NCBI GenBank assembly: GCA_016202875.1 | Contig: JACQNX010000047.1 | Span: forward strand, 1 to 37,602 | Direction: 5' to 3' | Source: Candidatus Aenigmatarchaeota archaeon | GTDB lineage: Archaea > Aenigmatarchaeota > Aenigmatarchaeia > GW2011-AR5 | Length of the DNA stretch: 37,602 nucleotides | Part shown: positions 3,927-37,602 of the stretch, piece after piece | How positions within the stretch are numbered: position 1 is the stretch's first letter | Layout: every line of letters begins with the position of its first letter | Notes under the pieces: generated by a model | The model's database searches: none | Told to the model about the DNA's origin: nothing | The model's input: only the letters and a program-made list of their open reading frames with translations | Program-made: the position numbers and the translations under genes

Positions 3927-6434
3927 ATGTGCAGGTTTTCTGACAGGTTAATTTTCGGGAATATGGTACCGGATCCGCGCTTTGCCCTCCCTGGTGCAAC
4001 GCCGCAGTATGCACCGCACCGTGACTTCAAGACAGAACACATAAAGCTGGAATTCTCTTTTGACATAGCAAAGAAGACCGTGTTTGGCAAGAGCGCAACG
4101 ACGGTAAAAATGCTTGTGGATGCACACAAGCTCGTTTTTGATGTAGTAAATATGAAAATCAATTCTGTAAAAGACCGTGCTGGAAGGGACTATAGGTATG
4201 ACTATGATGATGCAAAGATTATTATTTATCTGGACAGGACAGCAACTGCAGGGGAAATATTTGACATCATGATTGACTATAAAATCATTAAGCCAAAGCT
4301 GGGTGTTTACTTCATTGAACCTGACAGACCTTATCCCAAGAAGCCTGTGCAGATATATACACACAGCGAAGCAGAAGAGGCACGATACTGGTTTCCATGT
4401 CATGACAGTCCGCATGAAAAATGCACTACAGAGATGCTTATCACTGTGGCTTCTGACTTCTTTGCGCTTTCCAATGGCGCTTTGGTAAATGTTTTAGAGG
4501 ACAGGAAAGGCGGCAAGAAAACATACCACTGGAAAATGCGGCACCCTCATTCTTCTTACCTTGTTATGTTTGCTGTGGGCAGGTTTATAGAAATCAAGGA
4601 GGAATGGGATGGCATACCAATAACATATTATTGTGAAAAGGGGCGAGAGGCTGATACAAGAAGGGCGTTTGGAAAGACGCCGAAGATAATGGAGTTCTTT
4701 TCAAAGAAGATAGGTGTGCGATACCCATATGAAAAATATGCGCAGGTTGCTGTGGCAGATTTTATATTTGGCGGCATGGAGCACACAACAGCGACGACCC
4801 AGACTGACTTAATTCTCCATGATGAAAGGGCACATGAGGAGACGTGGCATGACAACCTTGTTGCTCATGAGCTTGCGCACCAGTGGTTTGGCGACTTACT
4901 GACGTGCAGGGACTGGGCGCATGCATGGCTTAATGAAAGCTTTGCATGGTACTTTGATGCATTGTTTGTAGAGCATGACAAAGGAGAAGAAGAATTCTTG
5001 TATCATATGTACGAAGATGCAAAAGTTTATTTTGCTGAAGACAAAGATCGATACAGAAGGCCTATTGTGACAAACATCTTCTTTGAGCCCAGCGACATAT
5101 TTGACAGGCATCTCTACGAAAAAGGCTCTTTGGTCCTCAATATGCTAAGACATATATTGGGCACTGCGATGTGGTGGAAGTGCATAAATCACTATGTTGA
5201 AAAGAACAAGAACAAGACAGTGGAAACAGAAAACCTTATTGAGGCAATAGAAGAAGTTTCTGGCAGGAACATGAAGAGGTTCTTTGACCAGTGGATTTAC
5301 GGAGCAGGGCACCCTGAACTTCAGGCCCAGTACTACTGGGATGACAAAACAAAAGAAGCTGTGATCAGGATAGCGCAGGTGCAGAAAACAGACGACCAGA
5401 CTCCACTATTTGCATTGCCCTTGACAATAGAAATAATAACAAAGGAGGGCAGAAAGAAGTTCACAGAAATTCTGGAAGAAAAACAAAAACAGTTCAGGTA
5501 CAAAATAAATTCTATTCCTTTTGATGTGAGAATTGATCCAGACAATGCCATTTTGAAGAAGATGGATTTCATCAAACCAAAATCCATGTGGCTGTATCAA
5601 CTGGAAAATGATTCTAATATTTTAGGAAGAATCGCAGCTGCTCAGGAAATTGCGAAACTGGGTAATAGAGAGGCCGTAGAGGCCTTGGCAAAGCACTTTG
5701 AGAGGGAAAGATCCTGGGGTGTGCAGGCTGAGACTGCTCTTGCTCTTGGGACTATAAAAACCGATGCTGCCTTAAAGGCGCTGCAGAAGATGATGGGGGT
5801 GAAACATCCGAAAGCGAGAAGGGCTGTTGCTGCAGCATTGGGCGAATTCAAAACAGACAGGGTCATGGATGCTTTGAAAACACTTGTTTCTGACAAGAAC
5901 AGCTATTTTGTCCCTGCGGAAGCTGTGAAAAGTATAGGAAAAACCAACCACGACTCATCGTTGCAGCTGCTGAAGAGATACCTGCCCTTGGAATCATGGA
6001 ATGACGTTATTAAAGCAGGGGTTCTGGAAGGAATAGCACAACTACAGACAGATGAATCTATACAATTACTGAAAGCGCATGCAAAATACGGTTATCATTA
6101 CAGGTCCCGAATGGCTGCAATAAGAAACCTCGGGCTTATAGGAAAGGGCAGAAAGGATGTTCTGGACTTGCTCATTGAATTTACAAAAGAAGATTTTGCC
6201 CTTGTCCAGCTGGTGTCTGTCATTGCTCTGGGGGATCTGGGAGATGAGCGTGCTATACCTTTGCTGGAGGATATGACAAAAGGGCACAGAGATGGCCGCG
6301 TAAAGAGACAGGCGCATGAGGCAATAAGAAAGATATACACATGGCTTGATACTGACCTCGAAACTGCTGAAATAAAGGAACGGTATGAAAAATTGAAGAA
6401 GGATTTTGAGGCGCAGAAGAAACGTGCAAGTTGA
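3927..6434 (+). CDS. M1 family aminopeptidase with C-terminal HEAT-like repeats
   Basis: GGMEHTTAT exopeptidase motif, HELAHQWFGD…NESFA zinc site; C-terminal alpha-helical repeats (AAQEIAKLGNREAVEALAKH, AVAAALGEFKTDRVMDALKTL). Possible alternative start at 3963. Confidence 0.95.
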   Translation: MCRFSDRLIFGNMVPDPRFALPGATPQYAPHRDFKTEHIKLEFSFDIAKKTVFGKSATTVKMLVDAHKLVFDVVNMKINSVKDRAGRDYRYDYDDAKIIIYLDRTATAGEIFDIMIDYKIIKPKLGVYFIEPDRPYPKKPVQIYTHSEAEEARYWFPCHDSPHEKCTTEMLITVASDFFALSNGALVNVLEDRKGGKKTYHWKMRHPHSSYLVMFAVGRFIEIKEEWDGIPITYYCEKGREADTRRAFGKTPKIMEFFSKKIGVRYPYEKYAQVAVADFIFGGMEHTTATTQTDLILHDERAHEETWHDNLVAHELAHQWFGDLLTCRDWAHAWLNESFAWYFDALFVEHDKGEEEFLYHMYEDAKVYFAEDKDRYRRPIVTNIFFEPSDIFDRHLYEKGSLVLNMLRHILGTAMWWKCINHYVEKNKNKTVETENLIEAIEEVSGRNMKRFFDQWIYGAGHPELQAQYYWDDKTKEAVIRIAQVQKTDDQTPLFALPLTIEIITKEGRKKFTEILEEKQKQFRYKINSIPFDVRIDPDNAILKKMDFIKPKSMWLYQLENDSNILGRIAAAQEIAKLGNREAVEALAKHFERERSWGVQAETALALGTIKTDAALKALQKMMGVKHPKARRAVAAALGEFKTDRVMDALKTLVSDKNSYFVPAEAVKSIGKTNHDSSLQLLKRYLPLESWNDVIKAGVLEGIAQLQTDESIQLLKAHAKYGYHYRSRMAAIRNLGLIGKGRKDVLDLLIEFTKEDFALVQLVSVIALGDLGDERAIPLLEDMTKGHRDGRVKRQAHEAIRKIYTWLDTDLETAEIKERYEKLKKDFEAQKKRAS

Positions 6435-6617
6435 TATTGCTTTTAGAACAGCAAAAGGCATTTAAAGTGTCAAATTAATAACTATCACAGGTGTAAGGTG
6501 TGCGGATAGGAAAAAATACAGCCCATTCATGGAATTTTAATAGGCTTGTCTGCACATTGCTAGGCCTGAAGTGTTCTAATCTCAAATCTGAAATTATCAC
6601 ATACTGATTTGGGATGA

Positions 6618-6641
6618 TTCTGTTTCTGGCGGCTAACAGAA
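6618..6641. other. Perfect 7-bp inverted repeat/hairpin in an intergenic region
   Basis: TTCTGTT-tctggcggct-AACAGAA. Confidence 0.4.
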
Positions 6642-6742
6642 GACCATGTTGCGCCTCGGGTAAGACCAATGGCTTTGGATTGTTTGTTTGTGTTCAGTGA
6701 GAAAGCTCGTAGTAAAAATTAACAAAAAGAGAGGCGATAACG

Positions 6743-6886
6743 ATGTCGGTGCCAAAATGCTGTGGTGTTGAAATGGGGGTAAATGTGGAAACTGGCAAAT
6801 TTGTAGAGGTCCAGTGCAAAATGTGCGGAGATGTAGTATTCGTCAAGAAGGGCGAAACAAACAAACCGCAGATGCTGGATGATTAA
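6743..6886 (+). CDS. 47-aa zinc-ribbon-like microprotein
   Basis: MSVPKCCGVEMGVNVETGKFVEVQCKMCGDVVFVKKGETNKPQMLDD*; paired CC…CxxC; below the length cut-off of the ORF track. Confidence 0.6.
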   Translation: MSVPKCCGVEMGVNVETGKFVEVQCKMCGDVVFVKKGETNKPQMLDD

Positions 6887-6987
6887 GCTAGGATATGCTT
6901 CGTTGGCTAATGCTATTGTTAATGCCTGCCAACCGTCTTTTTCCCTGTCATGAGATATTTATTAAATCTAAAATCCAGTTAGTTATC

Positions 6988-8046
6988 ATGCTGTCTTTTC
7001 GCGGTTTATTGAAAGGCGTTGATGCCGTTGTATTGCGCAATGACGAATCACACATGGATGAAAATGTTTTCTATTTACTGGAGGAAAAGCCCAGCACTGC
7101 CACGATGTTTCTTATTTTAAAGAAAAACAGCATACCTGTGCTTTTTGTTTCGGAGCTTGAACTAGGCAATTACACGCATAAAAAACATGTCCGTGTAGAA
7201 AAGCTTGACAAAGAGTCGTTGGCTAAAGAACTGGGAAATATAAAAGGGAAAATCGGCCTGAACTTTGAAACGCAAACTGCGAACCAACTGAAAAGACTAA
7301 AGAAATTCATAAAAGCACAGCAGGTTGATATTTCTTCATATTTTGAGAAAGCGCGGGAAGTCAAAACGCAGGCTGAAATCAAAAAAATCAAGACCGCATG
7401 CAGGATTACTGCAGAGATTTTTGACAGGGTGCAGGATTTGATGAAAATATGCAGAACTGAAAAAAACCTTGCCCTTAAGTTAGAGTTTGAAGCAAGAAAT
7501 AATGGGGCTGATGCTGCCGCATTTCCTCCCATAATTGCTTCTGGGATTTCATCGGCTATACCACACTACGCCACAGCAGACAAAAAAATTTCTGAGGGGT
7601 TTCTTGTTGTTGATTTTGGCGTTGTTTACGATGGCTACTGTTCTGATATAACAAGGACTTTTTTTGTCGGGATGCCAAATGCCTATCACAAACATATGTT
7701 TGCTGCTGTGTACAACGCAAAAGAGGCTGCAACAAAAATGTGTTTTGCAGGCACAGAAGCAAGGAAGGTCCATAATGCTGCTGATTCTGTTCTAGAAAAG
7801 AATTTTGGTGAAAAGATGATTCACGCTGTTGGCCATGGCCTGGGGTTGAAGGTGCACGATTTCCCGCAGGGGATAAATGCAAATGCACCATTTACATTAA
7901 AGGAAAATATGTGCATCACTGTAGAGCCTGGCTACTACAAAAGAAATTTTGGCGGGGTGCGCATAGAAGATGATGTTATAATAAAAAAGGGAAAATGCAG
8001 GGAGCTGACAAAAGCGGAAAAGGTGCTATTTTCGCTAAAAATTTAA
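6988..8046 (+). CDS. M24 family metallopeptidase (Xaa-Pro dipeptidase/aminopeptidase-like)
   Basis: Metal ligands in VVDFGVVYDGYCSDITRTFF, HAVGHGLGLKVHDFP, ITVEPGYY, GVRIEDDVII. Start at MLSFRGLLKG; the track ORF begins at 6895. Confidence 0.92.
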   Translation: MLSFRGLLKGVDAVVLRNDESHMDENVFYLLEEKPSTATMFLILKKNSIPVLFVSELELGNYTHKKHVRVEKLDKESLAKELGNIKGKIGLNFETQTANQLKRLKKFIKAQQVDISSYFEKAREVKTQAEIKKIKTACRITAEIFDRVQDLMKICRTEKNLALKLEFEARNNGADAAAFPPIIASGISSAIPHYATADKKISEGFLVVDFGVVYDGYCSDITRTFFVGMPNAYHKHMFAAVYNAKEAATKMCFAGTEARKVHNAADSVLEKNFGEKMIHAVGHGLGLKVHDFPQGINANAPFTLKENMCITVEPGYYKRNFGGVRIEDDVIIKKGKCRELTKAEKVLFSLKI

Positions 8047-32224: not shown

Positions 32225-33814
32225 CTACTTCTTCAAAAACTTCTCCACGATCACGCTGAATGCCGGCCTTGCGATCAGCACGCCGACGAGTACGCCGATC
32301 ATAGTCACTATCGCAAAGCCGCGGAGCAAACCGAAACCAAAGATTGTCAACGGTATCATGACAGCTATCATAGTCCCTGCAGAGCCGAATATAATAAAGA
32401 AAGCGCGCTTGAATCTTTCCTTCAATGTTTCAACGTGCGCTTCGCCGCCACGGAGGGCCTGGTCTATTATAATGATCTGCGAATTCACACCAGTGCCTAC
32501 TGTGGCGATAATGGCAGCAATGGCTGCCAGGTCTATTGTCCAGCCAATGGCTGTGGCCAAGCCTAAAATAATCAACACTTCACTTAAGAACGTAGCTACC
32601 ATTGGAATTACAAGGCGCAGCCGCCTGTAGCGCAACAGCACTATGACAACTACGCCTATTACTGCACCCAAACCCGCGAGCAACGCGCTCTTTATGAAGC
32701 CGACACCAAGCGTAGGGGATATTGTGTCTATGCTCAAGACTTCTATCGCCGTTGGCAAGGCGCCGGAGCGCAGGATTGCCTGCAATCTTGCTCTTTCACG
32801 CGCCGCTTCCTGAAAAGAGTCTGCACCACCTGAAATGCTTATTTCTGTTTCAGCACGTCCTTTTAGTGTGGAGGCGATGTTAAGCGTGTCAATGATTTCA
32901 CCATCGAGATAGAGCGATATCTGCGCGTCCAGATAGTTCCCGAGAGATGCTGCGTTTTTCGTGACTTTTGCAAAACGCTCTGCGCTCTCTGGGCTTATCT
33001 GTATCCCGAATGACCACTGGAAACCATTGCCCAAGTTTTCTATGCGCGAGCGCTGTGGATCAAAGAATACTGTCCTGATGTCAGAACCGGAAAATATAAT
33101 GGCTGTAAGATTTGCCCTGCTGCCACTACGGTTGTTGTAGACAAATTCTATGTGATCAATAACAAAGGAATCTCCAGGCTTTACCGTTTTATTCCCGATA
33201 GTCGCAACAGAGTCTGAAAATGTTATATTGTACTTCTTATCAAGATTGAGAGACGAAGCAGCAAATGTTATTTTTCCTTCGAACTTCCCCTGGGTCTGCA
33301 ACAAGTCAACAAGCTCCTGCTTATTGCCGCCAGCAATACTGATCTCAATAAAATTTTCCTTGTTTACACTCACAGTGCGAAATGCGGCTTCCCGCAGACC
33401 GAAGACATTTATCCTTGTCTGCAGAGTGGACTTGACCTGTTCTGCGACCTCAGGACTGCTGTCATTCAGTTTTATCAATGCACGGACTCCGCCTTTTATA
33501 TCAAGCCCAAAACGGAGATTGGTTGGCTGGACTTCTTCGATATCAATGCCCAGCGTGCCGTTTGCCCTTACGAATATGGCGCCTTTGTCTGTTTTAAGCT
33601 TCACAATGCCGGAATAAGTTTTGTCAACAAACTGCGGTGTAAACTTTTCGCCGTTAACCTCATAAACAACTATGCCGACTTTCAGCTGTTCTGGCGCATC
33701 TTTGCCGATAAAGGAAATTCTATAGCCAGCGGGATTCAGGTTGGGCCCTATAAGCACAATAGCTATGACAATGAACAGGAGCCACAACAGCACTTTGTAG
33801 TTTTTCAGGATCAT
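32225..33814 (-). CDS. secD: Preprotein translocase subunit SecD
   Basis: LRFGLDIKGGVRALIKL, GALPTAIEVLSIDTISPTLG, six-TM C-terminus. The track start is 33865; ATGA overlap with secF favours 33814. Confidence 0.95.
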   Translation of the reverse strand: MILKNYKVLLWLLFIVIAIVLIGPNLNPAGYRISFIGKDAPEQLKVGIVVYEVNGEKFTPQFVDKTYSGIVKLKTDKGAIFVRANGTLGIDIEEVQPTNLRFGLDIKGGVRALIKLNDSSPEVAEQVKSTLQTRINVFGLREAAFRTVSVNKENFIEISIAGGNKQELVDLLQTQGKFEGKITFAASSLNLDKKYNITFSDSVATIGNKTVKPGDSFVIDHIEFVYNNRSGSRANLTAIIFSGSDIRTVFFDPQRSRIENLGNGFQWSFGIQISPESAERFAKVTKNAASLGNYLDAQISLYLDGEIIDTLNIASTLKGRAETEISISGGADSFQEAARERARLQAILRSGALPTAIEVLSIDTISPTLGVGFIKSALLAGLGAVIGVVVIVLLRYRRLRLVIPMVATFLSEVLIILGLATAIGWTIDLAAIAAIIATVGTGVNSQIIIIDQALRGGEAHVETLKERFKRAFFIIFGSAGTMIAVMIPLTIFGFGLLRGFAIVTMIGVLVGVLIARPAFSVIVEKFLKK

Positions 33815-34656
33815 CTGTTTTTCCTCTCCATGTACAGCCGCAGAATTCCTGCATTGGTAAACCATGTTGCAAATACATCAACAATTAAGCCAATAATAAG
33901 CACCAGTGCGATCCGCTCAAGCACAAAAGAACCGGCGATAAAATACAGTGCAACCAATGCAGCCAGTGTGGTAGCAGTCATGACAAGACCGGTTTTCATG
34001 CCATTTGTAATCCTTTCAAACATCTGCAATTCGCGGGAACGCAGCATGTTAGTTGTCAGCAGAATGTCTGTGTCTACAGAATACCCAATCAATGTCAACA
34101 GGGCGGCGATAACGGGAAGCGAGAGCTCTATATGCAGCACGTTCATGATACCAAGTGTTATGCCGATGTCTACAATCACAGAAAGAATGACAATGCCTGA
34201 CGGCACGGGAGAACGAAATATTGCAAAGACCACAATAGCCATGAGAATAAATGCCACTACGAACGCCAGTACTGCTTGCTGGAAAAATATTGCACCAAGA
34301 ACAGGGCCGATAGTGCGCACAGTAGGTTCGCCTTCAAAATTGACGATTGTTTTAAGCGTTTCAATTGCCTGGGTTTCATTTGCACTATAAGGCAGACTAA
34401 TCTGAAGCGTTTTTGTAATGCCTGATATTAGCTGGACCTTTGCACCAGGAATTGCATTTTCTAGTGCCTGAATATCAGCATCCCTGACAGTTACACTGAT
34501 CTGCTTGCCGCCTGTGAGTTCAACGTCCCTTTCCAGGATAAAGCCTGTTGTCAGTGCTGTGTTGGCCAAGACCATAATGGATATCACTAAAGCAATCAGC
34601 GGCAGCCACATGAGCTTTTTCTGGTGCTTATCAACAATTCCAAATATCGAGAGCAT
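33811..34656 (-). CDS. secF: Preprotein translocase subunit SecF
   Basis: DVELTGGKQISVTV, TLIGYSVDTDILLTTNMLR. Confidence 0.94.
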   Translation of the reverse strand: MLSIFGIVDKHQKKLMWLPLIALVISIMVLANTALTTGFILERDVELTGGKQISVTVRDADIQALENAIPGAKVQLISGITKTLQISLPYSANETQAIETLKTIVNFEGEPTVRTIGPVLGAIFFQQAVLAFVVAFILMAIVVFAIFRSPVPSGIVILSVIVDIGITLGIMNVLHIELSLPVIAALLTLIGYSVDTDILLTTNMLRSRELQMFERITNGMKTGLVMTATTLAALVALYFIAGSFVLERIALVLIIGLIVDVFATWFTNAGILRLYMERKNR

Positions 34657-34715
34657 TTTTGGTCACATTAAAGAACTCTTATCAATTATTTAAGTTTAAA
34701 ACAGTTTTAATTCTA

Positions 34716-35804
34716 ATGCATGATGTTATTTTTGTAGGCGGTGGCGTTGCCGGCTGCTACACAGCAAGCCTGCTTCCAAAGCATTTGGACACGCTGGTGC
34801 TGGAAAAGAACAAAAAAATCCAGCTAAAAGACAGTGGAATCGTTTCTACACATTTTGATTCTTTTATCCAAGAGCCCAGACTCATTAAAAACCGCGTGGA
34901 TGAGATAGAATGCATATCACCTTCAGGGAAAGTGTTCTCGCTGAAGCGCGAAGACCCTTTTATTTACATTCTAAAAAGGAAGAAATTTTCCCGTTATCTG
35001 AGACAGAAAGCAAAAGAACGCAGCACCTTTAAGTGCGAGAATGTCCTAGAAGTTATCCAGAGGAAAGACTGCGTTACTGTGAGAACAAACGAAGGCGAAT
35101 ATGACGCAAGAATAGTTGTAGGGTGCGATGGTGCGAACTCTCTGGTGCGCAGGGGCATGGGCATCAAGCCACCTGTTTTGTCTGTAGGCATGATGGTAAA
35201 GACAAAAGAGAAGATGGCTGAAAAAATACAGGTGTTCTTTAATAAATATTATTCTCCAGACTATTTTGCATGGATCATCCCACAAAACCATGAGTACGGG
35301 CTCATGACAGCCATACGTCCAAGGGAATACATAAATTATTTTGCTGCCAGCCAGCACCTGCCTGAAGGAAAAATGTATGCCTATCTTGTTCCAATGGGCA
35401 TAACAAGAAGCTATGGCAACAGGACTTTATTAGTAGGGGACGCGTGCGGGCAAAACAAGCCACTGACGGGGGGCGGCATCATGTTCTCGCTCACTGCTGC
35501 GCATATTGCTGCAGAGATAATAAAAGATGCATTTCAGACAAAAACATTTTCTGCCGCCTTTCTCTGCCATTATGAAAGAATGTGGAAGTCACAGTTGCAG
35601 AAAGAAATAAACAGGCAAAAAATTGTAAGAAAAATATACAGGAAACTCACAAACAATGACGTAGACAAGCTGTTTGATGACTTTGGCGCGCATATAGAGA
35701 CGCTGACAGGGTTTGATTATGACAGATTCAGTCTTTCTTCGAGCAACTTGCCGAGGTTGAAACTCTTTAAGTTTGCTATTTCACATGCACGGCATTTACT
35801 TTGA
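34716..35804 (+). CDS. Geranylgeranyl reductase family FAD-dependent oxidoreductase
   Basis: DVIFVGGGVAGCYTASLLPKHLDTLVLEKNKKI; VVGCDGANSLVRR; LLVGDACGQNKPLTGGGI. The track start is 34659. Confidence 0.88.
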   Translation: MHDVIFVGGGVAGCYTASLLPKHLDTLVLEKNKKIQLKDSGIVSTHFDSFIQEPRLIKNRVDEIECISPSGKVFSLKREDPFIYILKRKKFSRYLRQKAKERSTFKCENVLEVIQRKDCVTVRTNEGEYDARIVVGCDGANSLVRRGMGIKPPVLSVGMMVKTKEKMAEKIQVFFNKYYSPDYFAWIIPQNHEYGLMTAIRPREYINYFAASQHLPEGKMYAYLVPMGITRSYGNRTLLVGDACGQNKPLTGGGIMFSLTAAHIAAEIIKDAFQTKTFSAAFLCHYERMWKSQLQKEINRQKIVRKIYRKLTNNDVDKLFDDFGAHIETLTGFDYDRFSLSSSNLPRLKLFKFAISHARHLL

Positions 35805-35852
35805 AACTTCTCTACGAATGACAATCTTATAAAGATTTAACATGAATCTCAA

Positions 35853-37028
35853 ATGATGATGAATTTTTCTACTATGCTGAAAAAATACTGGCCTACAATT
35901 ATTATCCTTGCAATAGTAGTGCTCGGGCTTTATGTAAGGATTTTTGACTATAAATTCCCTTACCTGCGCAACATAGACTCGTATGCATTCACAAGGCAGA
36001 TTGAGGATGTTGCCAACAATGGTTACTTGCCGCAGCACGATGACCTTTCTCTTGCGCCGGCAGGACAGGACAGGCCTCTGGGCAGAGACCTCTATGTTTA
36101 CATAATGGCATATGGATTCAGTTTTGTGAGGTTCTTCAGTCCTGGCTACACACTGTTTCAATTCCTGATATGGGCGCCTGCGCTCATGGCGGCGCTCATG
36201 GCCATACCTATGTACTATATAGGCAAAATACTCTATGACAGGCGGGCTGGGATACTGGCTGCGTTTTTTATTGTATTTGACATATCAATACTTTCCAGGA
36301 CACTTGGCGGAGACCCTGACAATGACACATCTGTCCTCCTGTTCCCTCTAATAGCTATTGCCTTATTCTTGCTTGCATACAAATACACCAATGAAAAAGG
36401 CTTCACAAAAAAAGGCATTCTTTATACAATTCTGGCTGGAATAGGACTTGTGGCATGGGGCTATATATGGAGTGGCTTCTGGTTTGTGATATGGCTCATA
36501 GCAGGATTTCTTATTGTCAAGATAATCATGAAGCTAGTTAAGAGCAGAAACATAACAGGGATAAAAGAGATGAAGCGGCCCATATTTGTATTCATTGCGA
36601 TGATTGTAATATTCTTTGTACTCACTGTGCCGTTTTTGGGGCCGAGGGTCATTACAGAAACAGTGCAGGGGCCGTTCTCTTTCGGCGATATTAAAAGCGA
36701 AGAGAACAGAGAATTCCCCAATGTTTACGTTTCTGTGGCTGAGCTACAGACAGGTGGAGGAGTACGCGAGATTGTCCAGAGAACAAACATATACCTATTT
36801 GTTTTCATGATCTTTTCATTGGTATATCTGGCTGTTTCAGCACTTATGAAAAGGAAAGAGCATATTGATACTTTTATACTTCTGCTGATATGGTTTGTGG
36901 GACCACTGATTGCAACTGGTATAGGCATCAGGTTCGCTATTTTGTTTTCAGCACCCATTGCTATAGGGTCAGCGATATTGGTTTCCAAAATATTCAGAAT
37001 AATTGACGGCGAAGGAGTTGCAGAATAA
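35853..37028 (+). CDS. Oligosaccharyltransferase STT3/AglB-like, N-terminal membrane part
   Basis: RNIDSYAFTRQIEDV, LSRTLGGDPDNDTSVL and IRFAILFSAPIAIGSA match STT3 membrane motifs. Confidence 0.85.
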   Translation: MMMNFSTMLKKYWPTIIILAIVVLGLYVRIFDYKFPYLRNIDSYAFTRQIEDVANNGYLPQHDDLSLAPAGQDRPLGRDLYVYIMAYGFSFVRFFSPGYTLFQFLIWAPALMAALMAIPMYYIGKILYDRRAGILAAFFIVFDISILSRTLGGDPDNDTSVLLFPLIAIALFLLAYKYTNEKGFTKKGILYTILAGIGLVAWGYIWSGFWFVIWLIAGFLIVKIIMKLVKSRNITGIKEMKRPIFVFIAMIVIFFVLTVPFLGPRVITETVQGPFSFGDIKSEENREFPNVYVSVAELQTGGGVREIVQRTNIYLFVFMIFSLVYLAVSALMKRKEHIDTFILLLIWFVGPLIATGIGIRFAILFSAPIAIGSAILVSKIFRIIDGEGVAE

Positions 37029-37602
37029 ATGGTTAATAAATATCTGGGAAGCGCTATTGGCAGTATCGTTATTATGACAGCAGTTTTCCTTATACATACT
37101 GTTTTATCGTTTCCATTAAATTATACAATAGGCTTTGCAGCGGCGTTTCTGGTTTATATTCTGGCTTTTTTCTTTGTCACCAAGAAAAAAAGTTTCACAG
37201 AGAAAAATTTCACAGACATAACATTCCTGCACCTCACTGGTGTGGCAATTCTGCTCGCATTTGCCTTCTTTAACATGACATTTCTATTTGTAGTACTTAT
37301 TGTACTTTCAATAGCATTCGTCGTAATGAAGGCGTTTTCTATCAGGGATCTTCTAAAGACACTGTTCATGTTTATCGTTGTCTTTATAGCAGCGACAACA
37401 TCTTTCCAACCTGCTGTTGCAATATCATCTGGCCAGGGGACAGTGCTCAGCGACAACTGGTGGAACTCGCTGAACTGGATAAGGAACAACACAGATACAT
37501 GCGCTGTGGTGGCCACATACTGGGATCCTGGACATTTCATTACAGGCATTGCCAAAAGGGCTGTTGTCTTTGATGGTGCGTCACAGAATGCGCTCTGGAA
37601 TA
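37029..37602 (+). CDS. STT3/AglB-like C-terminal part with WWDYG-equivalent motif (truncated by window end)
   Basis: MVNKYLGSAIGSIVIMTAVF…SDNWWNSLNWIRNNTDTCAVVATYWDPGHFITGIAKRAVVFDGASQNALWN; same frame as 35853-37028 and separated from it by one TAA. Confidence 0.85.
   Translation, partial: MVNKYLGSAIGSIVIMTAVFLIHTVLSFPLNYTIGFAAAFLVYILAFFFVTKKKSFTEKNFTDITFLHLTGVAILLAFAFFNMTFLFVVLIVLSIAFVVMKAFSIRDLLKTLFMFIVVFIAATTSFQPAVAISSGQGTVLSDNWWNSLNWIRNNTDTCAVVATYWDPGHFITGIAKRAVVFDGASQNALWN

Follow-up and report, generated by a model that had tools for sequence, protein, structure and literature searches.

Two adjacent genes at the contig end

The window analyzed here, meaning the whole stretch of 37,602 nucleotides, forms the end of contig C32 in an 815-kb, 85-contig genome of Candidatus Aenigmatarchaeota (DPANN), which NCBI assigns to the archaeal kingdom Nanobdellati. 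Its last two open reading frames (ORFs) correspond to the two halves of an STT3/AglB oligosaccharyltransferase (OST), referred to here as STT3-N and STT3-C. STT3-N (35853..37028, + strand; 391 amino acids) is assigned TM1 to TM12 and the donor- and metal-binding half of the active site; it matches the STT3 N-terminal domain PF02516 in Pfam (E=2.3e-23; 83.8 bits against a cut-off of 24.5) and has stand-alone homologous ORFs in relatives. STT3-C (37029..37602, + strand), which likewise has homologous ORFs in relatives, is truncated by the contig end after the first 191 of its 434 amino acids. Contig C13 of the same genome (G000; minus strand) overlaps the last 141 bp of the window exactly and supplies the remainder of the gene (L032, minus strand, 6229-7098). 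Scores for STT3-C were below threshold in both Pfam and NCBIfam, and its assignment thus depends on evidence from profiles, motifs, and fold. For annotation this is a warning, as genomes in which STT3-C is missed appear to encode a shortened OST alongside a hypothetical protein.

At the junction, which reads GAAGGAGTTGCAGAATAAATGGTT, the TAA stop of STT3-N (37026..37028, + strand) directly abuts the ATG at 37029, with both ORFs in one frame. The gene break marked by this stop is conserved, separating TM12 from TM13, and the N-halves of relatives end at the same place. The Shine-Dalgarno-like AAGGAG (37012..37017, + strand) lies within the end of STT3-N, 11 nt ahead of the second ATG. The first-pass annotation had given the same positions for the TAA, the ATG, and AAGGAG, together with the common frame and a first ORF of 391 amino acids starting at 35853, all of which held upon rereading. 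No comparable Shine-Dalgarno-like motif precedes most of the other window genes inspected, and none is evident ahead of STT3-N by inspection; a TATA-box-like TTATAAAG (35827..35834, + strand), recognized in the sequence by its match to the consensus, precedes the first ATG by about 26 bp. These signals would suit one message carrying a leaderless STT3-N followed by a Shine-Dalgarno-led STT3-C. On such a bicistronic message, the translational coupling suggested earlier is plausible in this genome, but the enzyme in other genomes does not require it.

Upstream of STT3-N are secD, secF, and a GGR-like FAD gene (window 32225-35804), and on C13 STT3-C is followed downstream by a polysaccharide flippase, two NDP-sugar epimerases, and two family-9 glycosyltransferases. 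The order secD-secF, GGR, STT3-N, STT3-C is conserved in families f1 and f2, in several genomes of which secD, secF, and GGR beside the split OST link export genes with glycosylation genes. Scans of the window returned no tRNA and no Rfam match.

Active-site motifs and predicted fold of the two halves

In AfAglB, the metal ligands are Asp47, Asp161, and His163, with Glu360 of the TIXE motif involved indirectly (PMC8342417), and the Ser/Thr pocket of AglB consists of WWDYG with DK/MI (PMC8342417, PMC7226087). The residues of the metal- and donor-binding motifs (Asp42, Asp156, Asp158, and Glu297) all lie in the N-half. Asp42 of RNIDSY (35976..35978, + strand), the first DXD motif in EL1, corresponds to AfAglB Asp47 in the alignment with 3waj and 5gmy, and the second DXD motif, GDPDND in EL2 (36309..36326, + strand), places Asp156 and Asp158 on the AfAglB ligands Asp161 and His163; Asp42, Asp156, and Asp158 are invariant in 19 N-halves. 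SVAE in EL5 (36732..36743, + strand) represents the TIXE/SVSE motif, which is present in every row of the alignment, with Ser294 and Glu297 invariant. RNIDSY and GDPDNDTS, initially described as membrane motifs, are by comparison with AfAglB (PMC8342417) rather catalytic motifs of extracytoplasmic loops.

The C-half carries YWDPG (37518..37532, + strand), which aligns on WWDYG of human STT3A and is invariant in 20 C-halves. It also carries DLIGKS, a DLxxK pattern in the part of the ORF found on C13, whose Asp and Lys are invariant in C-halves and whose putative DK/MI role was assigned by pattern and position. In all cases, invariance was scored over 19 to 20 aligned sequences per half. WWNSLNWI, which the first-pass annotation had mistaken for the catalytic motif, is a conserved stretch preceding YWDPG. 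YWDPG is common to the main split clade described below, its two fused members included, while this position is occupied by WWDPG or WWDFG in fused relatives and by WWDQG in family f9. Elsewhere in the genome of the window, contig C61 encodes a single-chain, 478-amino-acid PMT_2-like GT-C protein (L134:184-1620) whose C-terminal part resembles STT3-C (DWQWGHWIAGIAERR), and matches similar to this protein also occur in G009, G012, and G015.

When the two halves of the L082 pair were modeled as one joined chain with AlphaFold2, using an input alignment of 36 rows, mostly unpaired halves, the model reached a pLDDT of 87 and a pTM of 0.82. The pLDDT fell below 50 at residues 297-299, at the junction (residues 400-405), and at the C terminus. 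The best Foldseek matches of the model were AglB (7e9s) and PglB (5ogl/6gxc), with E values of ~1e-16 to 1e-17, which suggests that the joined pair would fold as one oligosaccharyltransferase.

Hydropathy analysis predicts 8 to 11 TM helices in the N-half, the helices of the L082 model being compatible with 12. TM13 falls to the C-half, where its equivalent, leading into the extracytoplasmic domain, was located at 37350..37400 (+ strand) by hydropathy and PDB profile alignment. Four extra TM helices are predicted by hydropathy ahead of it, at the N terminus of STT3-C (37044..37325, + strand), a block that varies between lineages (0, 2, 4, or more). Since an N-in/C-out subunit in place of TM13 requires an odd number of TM helices, the counts of 1, 3, or 5 predicted by hydropathy before YWDPG in nearly all genomes fit such a topology. 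Exceptions are G017, with a count of 2 that probably reflects the choice of start codon, and family f2, with uncertain counts of 4 to 7. N-half proteins of families f1, f2, and f5 often bear a conserved cytoplasmic C-terminal tail (GEDKxLxD-like; e.g., L043 and L044), which is absent from f9 and f11.

Conservation and arrangement of the break

Profiles of each half were run against all 156 genomes of the class, this one class being the scope of the survey, as a search at the level of the phylum also yielded genomes of this class only. STT3/AglB is split in two genes at one point in 41 genomes: 27 of the 28 with a match in the order of the window (families f1 to f6), 9 of 10 showing both halves in the sister family f11, and all five of family f9. 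The first-pass annotation had proposed to compare orthologues for this break, and its recurrence is far beyond chance. When 59 relatives were searched using the joined protein, the halves came out as adjacent separate ORFs in 16/16 other matching genomes of the family and also in most of the order. In every split genome, the break falls in the cytoplasmic loop that connects TM12 to TM13, with the N-half ending just past TM12 (~3waj residues 448-455 by alignment) and the C-half starting just ahead of TM13. Most other families of the class have a single frame of ~600-870 amino acids, and two genomes within the split clade, G030 and G035, have a fused gene. At three other loci, L048 (G018), L057 (G020), and L119 (G061), the frame is broken within the N-half coding region, likely through assembly frameshifts or decay distinct from the conserved break. 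Genome G152 has an additional, incomplete copy of STT3-C (L097:728-1132, on a contig numbered C13 in that genome).

A tree of 61 proteins unites families f1 to f6 and f11 in a supported clade, 29 of whose members are split and 2 fused, and places f9 elsewhere. Re-fusion is the best reading of the fused genes in G030 and G035, although G035 takes a basal position within f11. For f9, the best tree and the WWDQG motif favor a separate fission, but the alternative of one clade including f9, and hence a single origin, was not rejected by the AU test (p 0.081).

The halves are not always neighbors. Within genus g29 of family f11, they are adjacent in G149, G150, G153, and G154 and lie on separate contigs in G151, G152, G042, and G048. 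Gene names obtained by reading translations place the N-half of G151 beside a UDP-glucose dehydrogenase and an inositol-monophosphatase-like gene, and its C-half beside a YchF-like GTPase and an acetyl-CoA-synthetase-like gene. The neighbors in G048 match those in G151, as do the neighbors of the C-half in G042, with the N-halves of G048 and G042 running to contig ends; binning errors repeated in several genomes are an unlikely cause. These unlinked loci, and the many GT-C enzymes that function without an STT3-type domain, might be taken to indicate that STT3-N and STT3-C act as independent enzymes, or are what is left of a decayed OST, rather than forming one complex. We consider this improbable, given that the essential motifs of one active site are divided between the halves and invariant in both, that every family of the split clade has both halves together, and that the joined pair is predicted to fold as an OST.

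The frame of the second gene bears on another scenario, in which readthrough of the TAA would yield a short STT3-N plus a full-length AglB. The window, G002, and G008 have both ORFs in one frame with a single TAA between them, as readthrough would allow. Readthrough would also imply that relatives keep the common frame, but in 25 of the 31 compared the C-half is in a different reading frame from the N-half, frequently overlapping its stop by a few bases. In G007 and G013 (genus g8), moreover, a whole 220-amino-acid SAM methyltransferase gene stands between the halves (Pfam; L073:2120-2782 and L072). Together with the unlinked loci, these arrangements indicate that two polypeptides are made, contrary to the readthrough option of the first-pass annotation. 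Against readthrough also stand the lack of any Rfam family match in the window and the presence of an ATG and a Shine-Dalgarno-like sequence belonging to the second ORF itself, and we regard it as very unlikely. The same evidence from frames, the intervening gene, and unlinked loci led us to reject pseudogenization. Sequencing error and a recent nonsense mutation were options also raised earlier; that the gene is truly fused and owes its TAA to such a mutation, or to a mistake in sequencing or assembly, is hardly credible: although this genome is a metagenome-assembled one (85 contigs, 78% complete) in which one TAA alone interrupts the frame, so that the window by itself is compatible with an error, the TAA falls exactly at the end point of the N-half genes of relatives, dozens of which have the same break, and the split is kept across family and order.

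Proposed two-subunit enzyme and known systems

Taken together, the conserved break, the out-of-frame and unlinked halves, and the motifs on both halves strongly support the option of a real two-subunit enzyme. A single polypeptide is usual for STT3/AglB, without strictly defining it, and here there are two genes. Very probably, STT3-N and STT3-C constitute an obligate two-subunit catalytic AglB/STT3 that arose by an old gene fission and is encoded as an operon in this genome. We propose that this fission divided AglB/STT3 into STT3-N, which would hold TM1-12 and the motifs for metal and donor binding, and a membrane-anchored STT3-C, which would comprise TM13 and an extracytoplasmic domain for sequon recognition that bears YWDPG and DLxxK. 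Both may be translated from one operon in this genome, with the ribosome stopping at the TAA at 37026 and initiation at the ATG at 37029 being aided by AAGGAG within the end of STT3-N. The two chains would then be inserted separately and assembled in the membrane, generating one active site to which both contribute. Assembly, activity, and translational coupling are features that we infer from sequence.

This natural, deeply conserved division between donor and metal binding on the one side and acceptor recognition on the other offers a ready system for testing the role of each half and lets one ask whether the halves assemble in trans or can be mixed. STT3-C might even be expressed on its own and serve as an exchangeable subunit for acceptor recognition, and its extra TM helices could form a novel module for docking, perhaps to the neighboring SecDF export machinery; we consider this reading as a whole unlikely. 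If STT3-C were exchangeable, cells could regulate or swap sequon recognition apart from the donor-binding core.

To our knowledge, accounts of STT3/AglB/PglB throughout life describe one catalytic chain. Our literature search, to which most subscription papers were inaccessible, found no earlier report of a split STT3/AglB, and the main text of a survey of archaeal gene fusion and fission does not mention one (PMC11237513). The "split pglB2" of Neisseria is a different gene (GATDH). We classify the split AglB as a new two-subunit form of a known enzyme.

With AglB/STT3/PglB (AfAglB 3waj, 5gmy, and 7e9s; bacterial PglB 5ogl and 6gxc; human STT3A 6s7o), the split enzyme shares the predicted fold and the motif set of two DXD motifs, TIXE/SVSE, WWDYG, and, probably, DK. 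Unlike them, it is made as two polypeptides, with the cut falling between TM12 and TM13, and has YWDPG for WWDYG; in some lineages, TM13 is also preceded by as many as four or more additional TM helices. Its closest homologues, the fused AglB proteins of other Aenigmatarchaeota families (f13, f26, f16, f18, and others), also have SVAE and WWDPG-type motifs but, unlike the split pair, occupy one open frame of ~600-870 amino acids. Among other glycosyltransferases, Alg13/Alg14 and EpsE/EpsF (PMC4973528, PMC8993221) represent an enzyme of a related pathway that is divided between an anchor gene and a catalytic gene and later underwent re-fusions, although they are kin of MurG and not of STT3. Split-Doa10 of Kluyveromyces (PMC3464245) is likewise a polytopic membrane enzyme that has undergone natural fission between TM helices, but it is a yeast ubiquitin ligase, and its split is confined to one genus.
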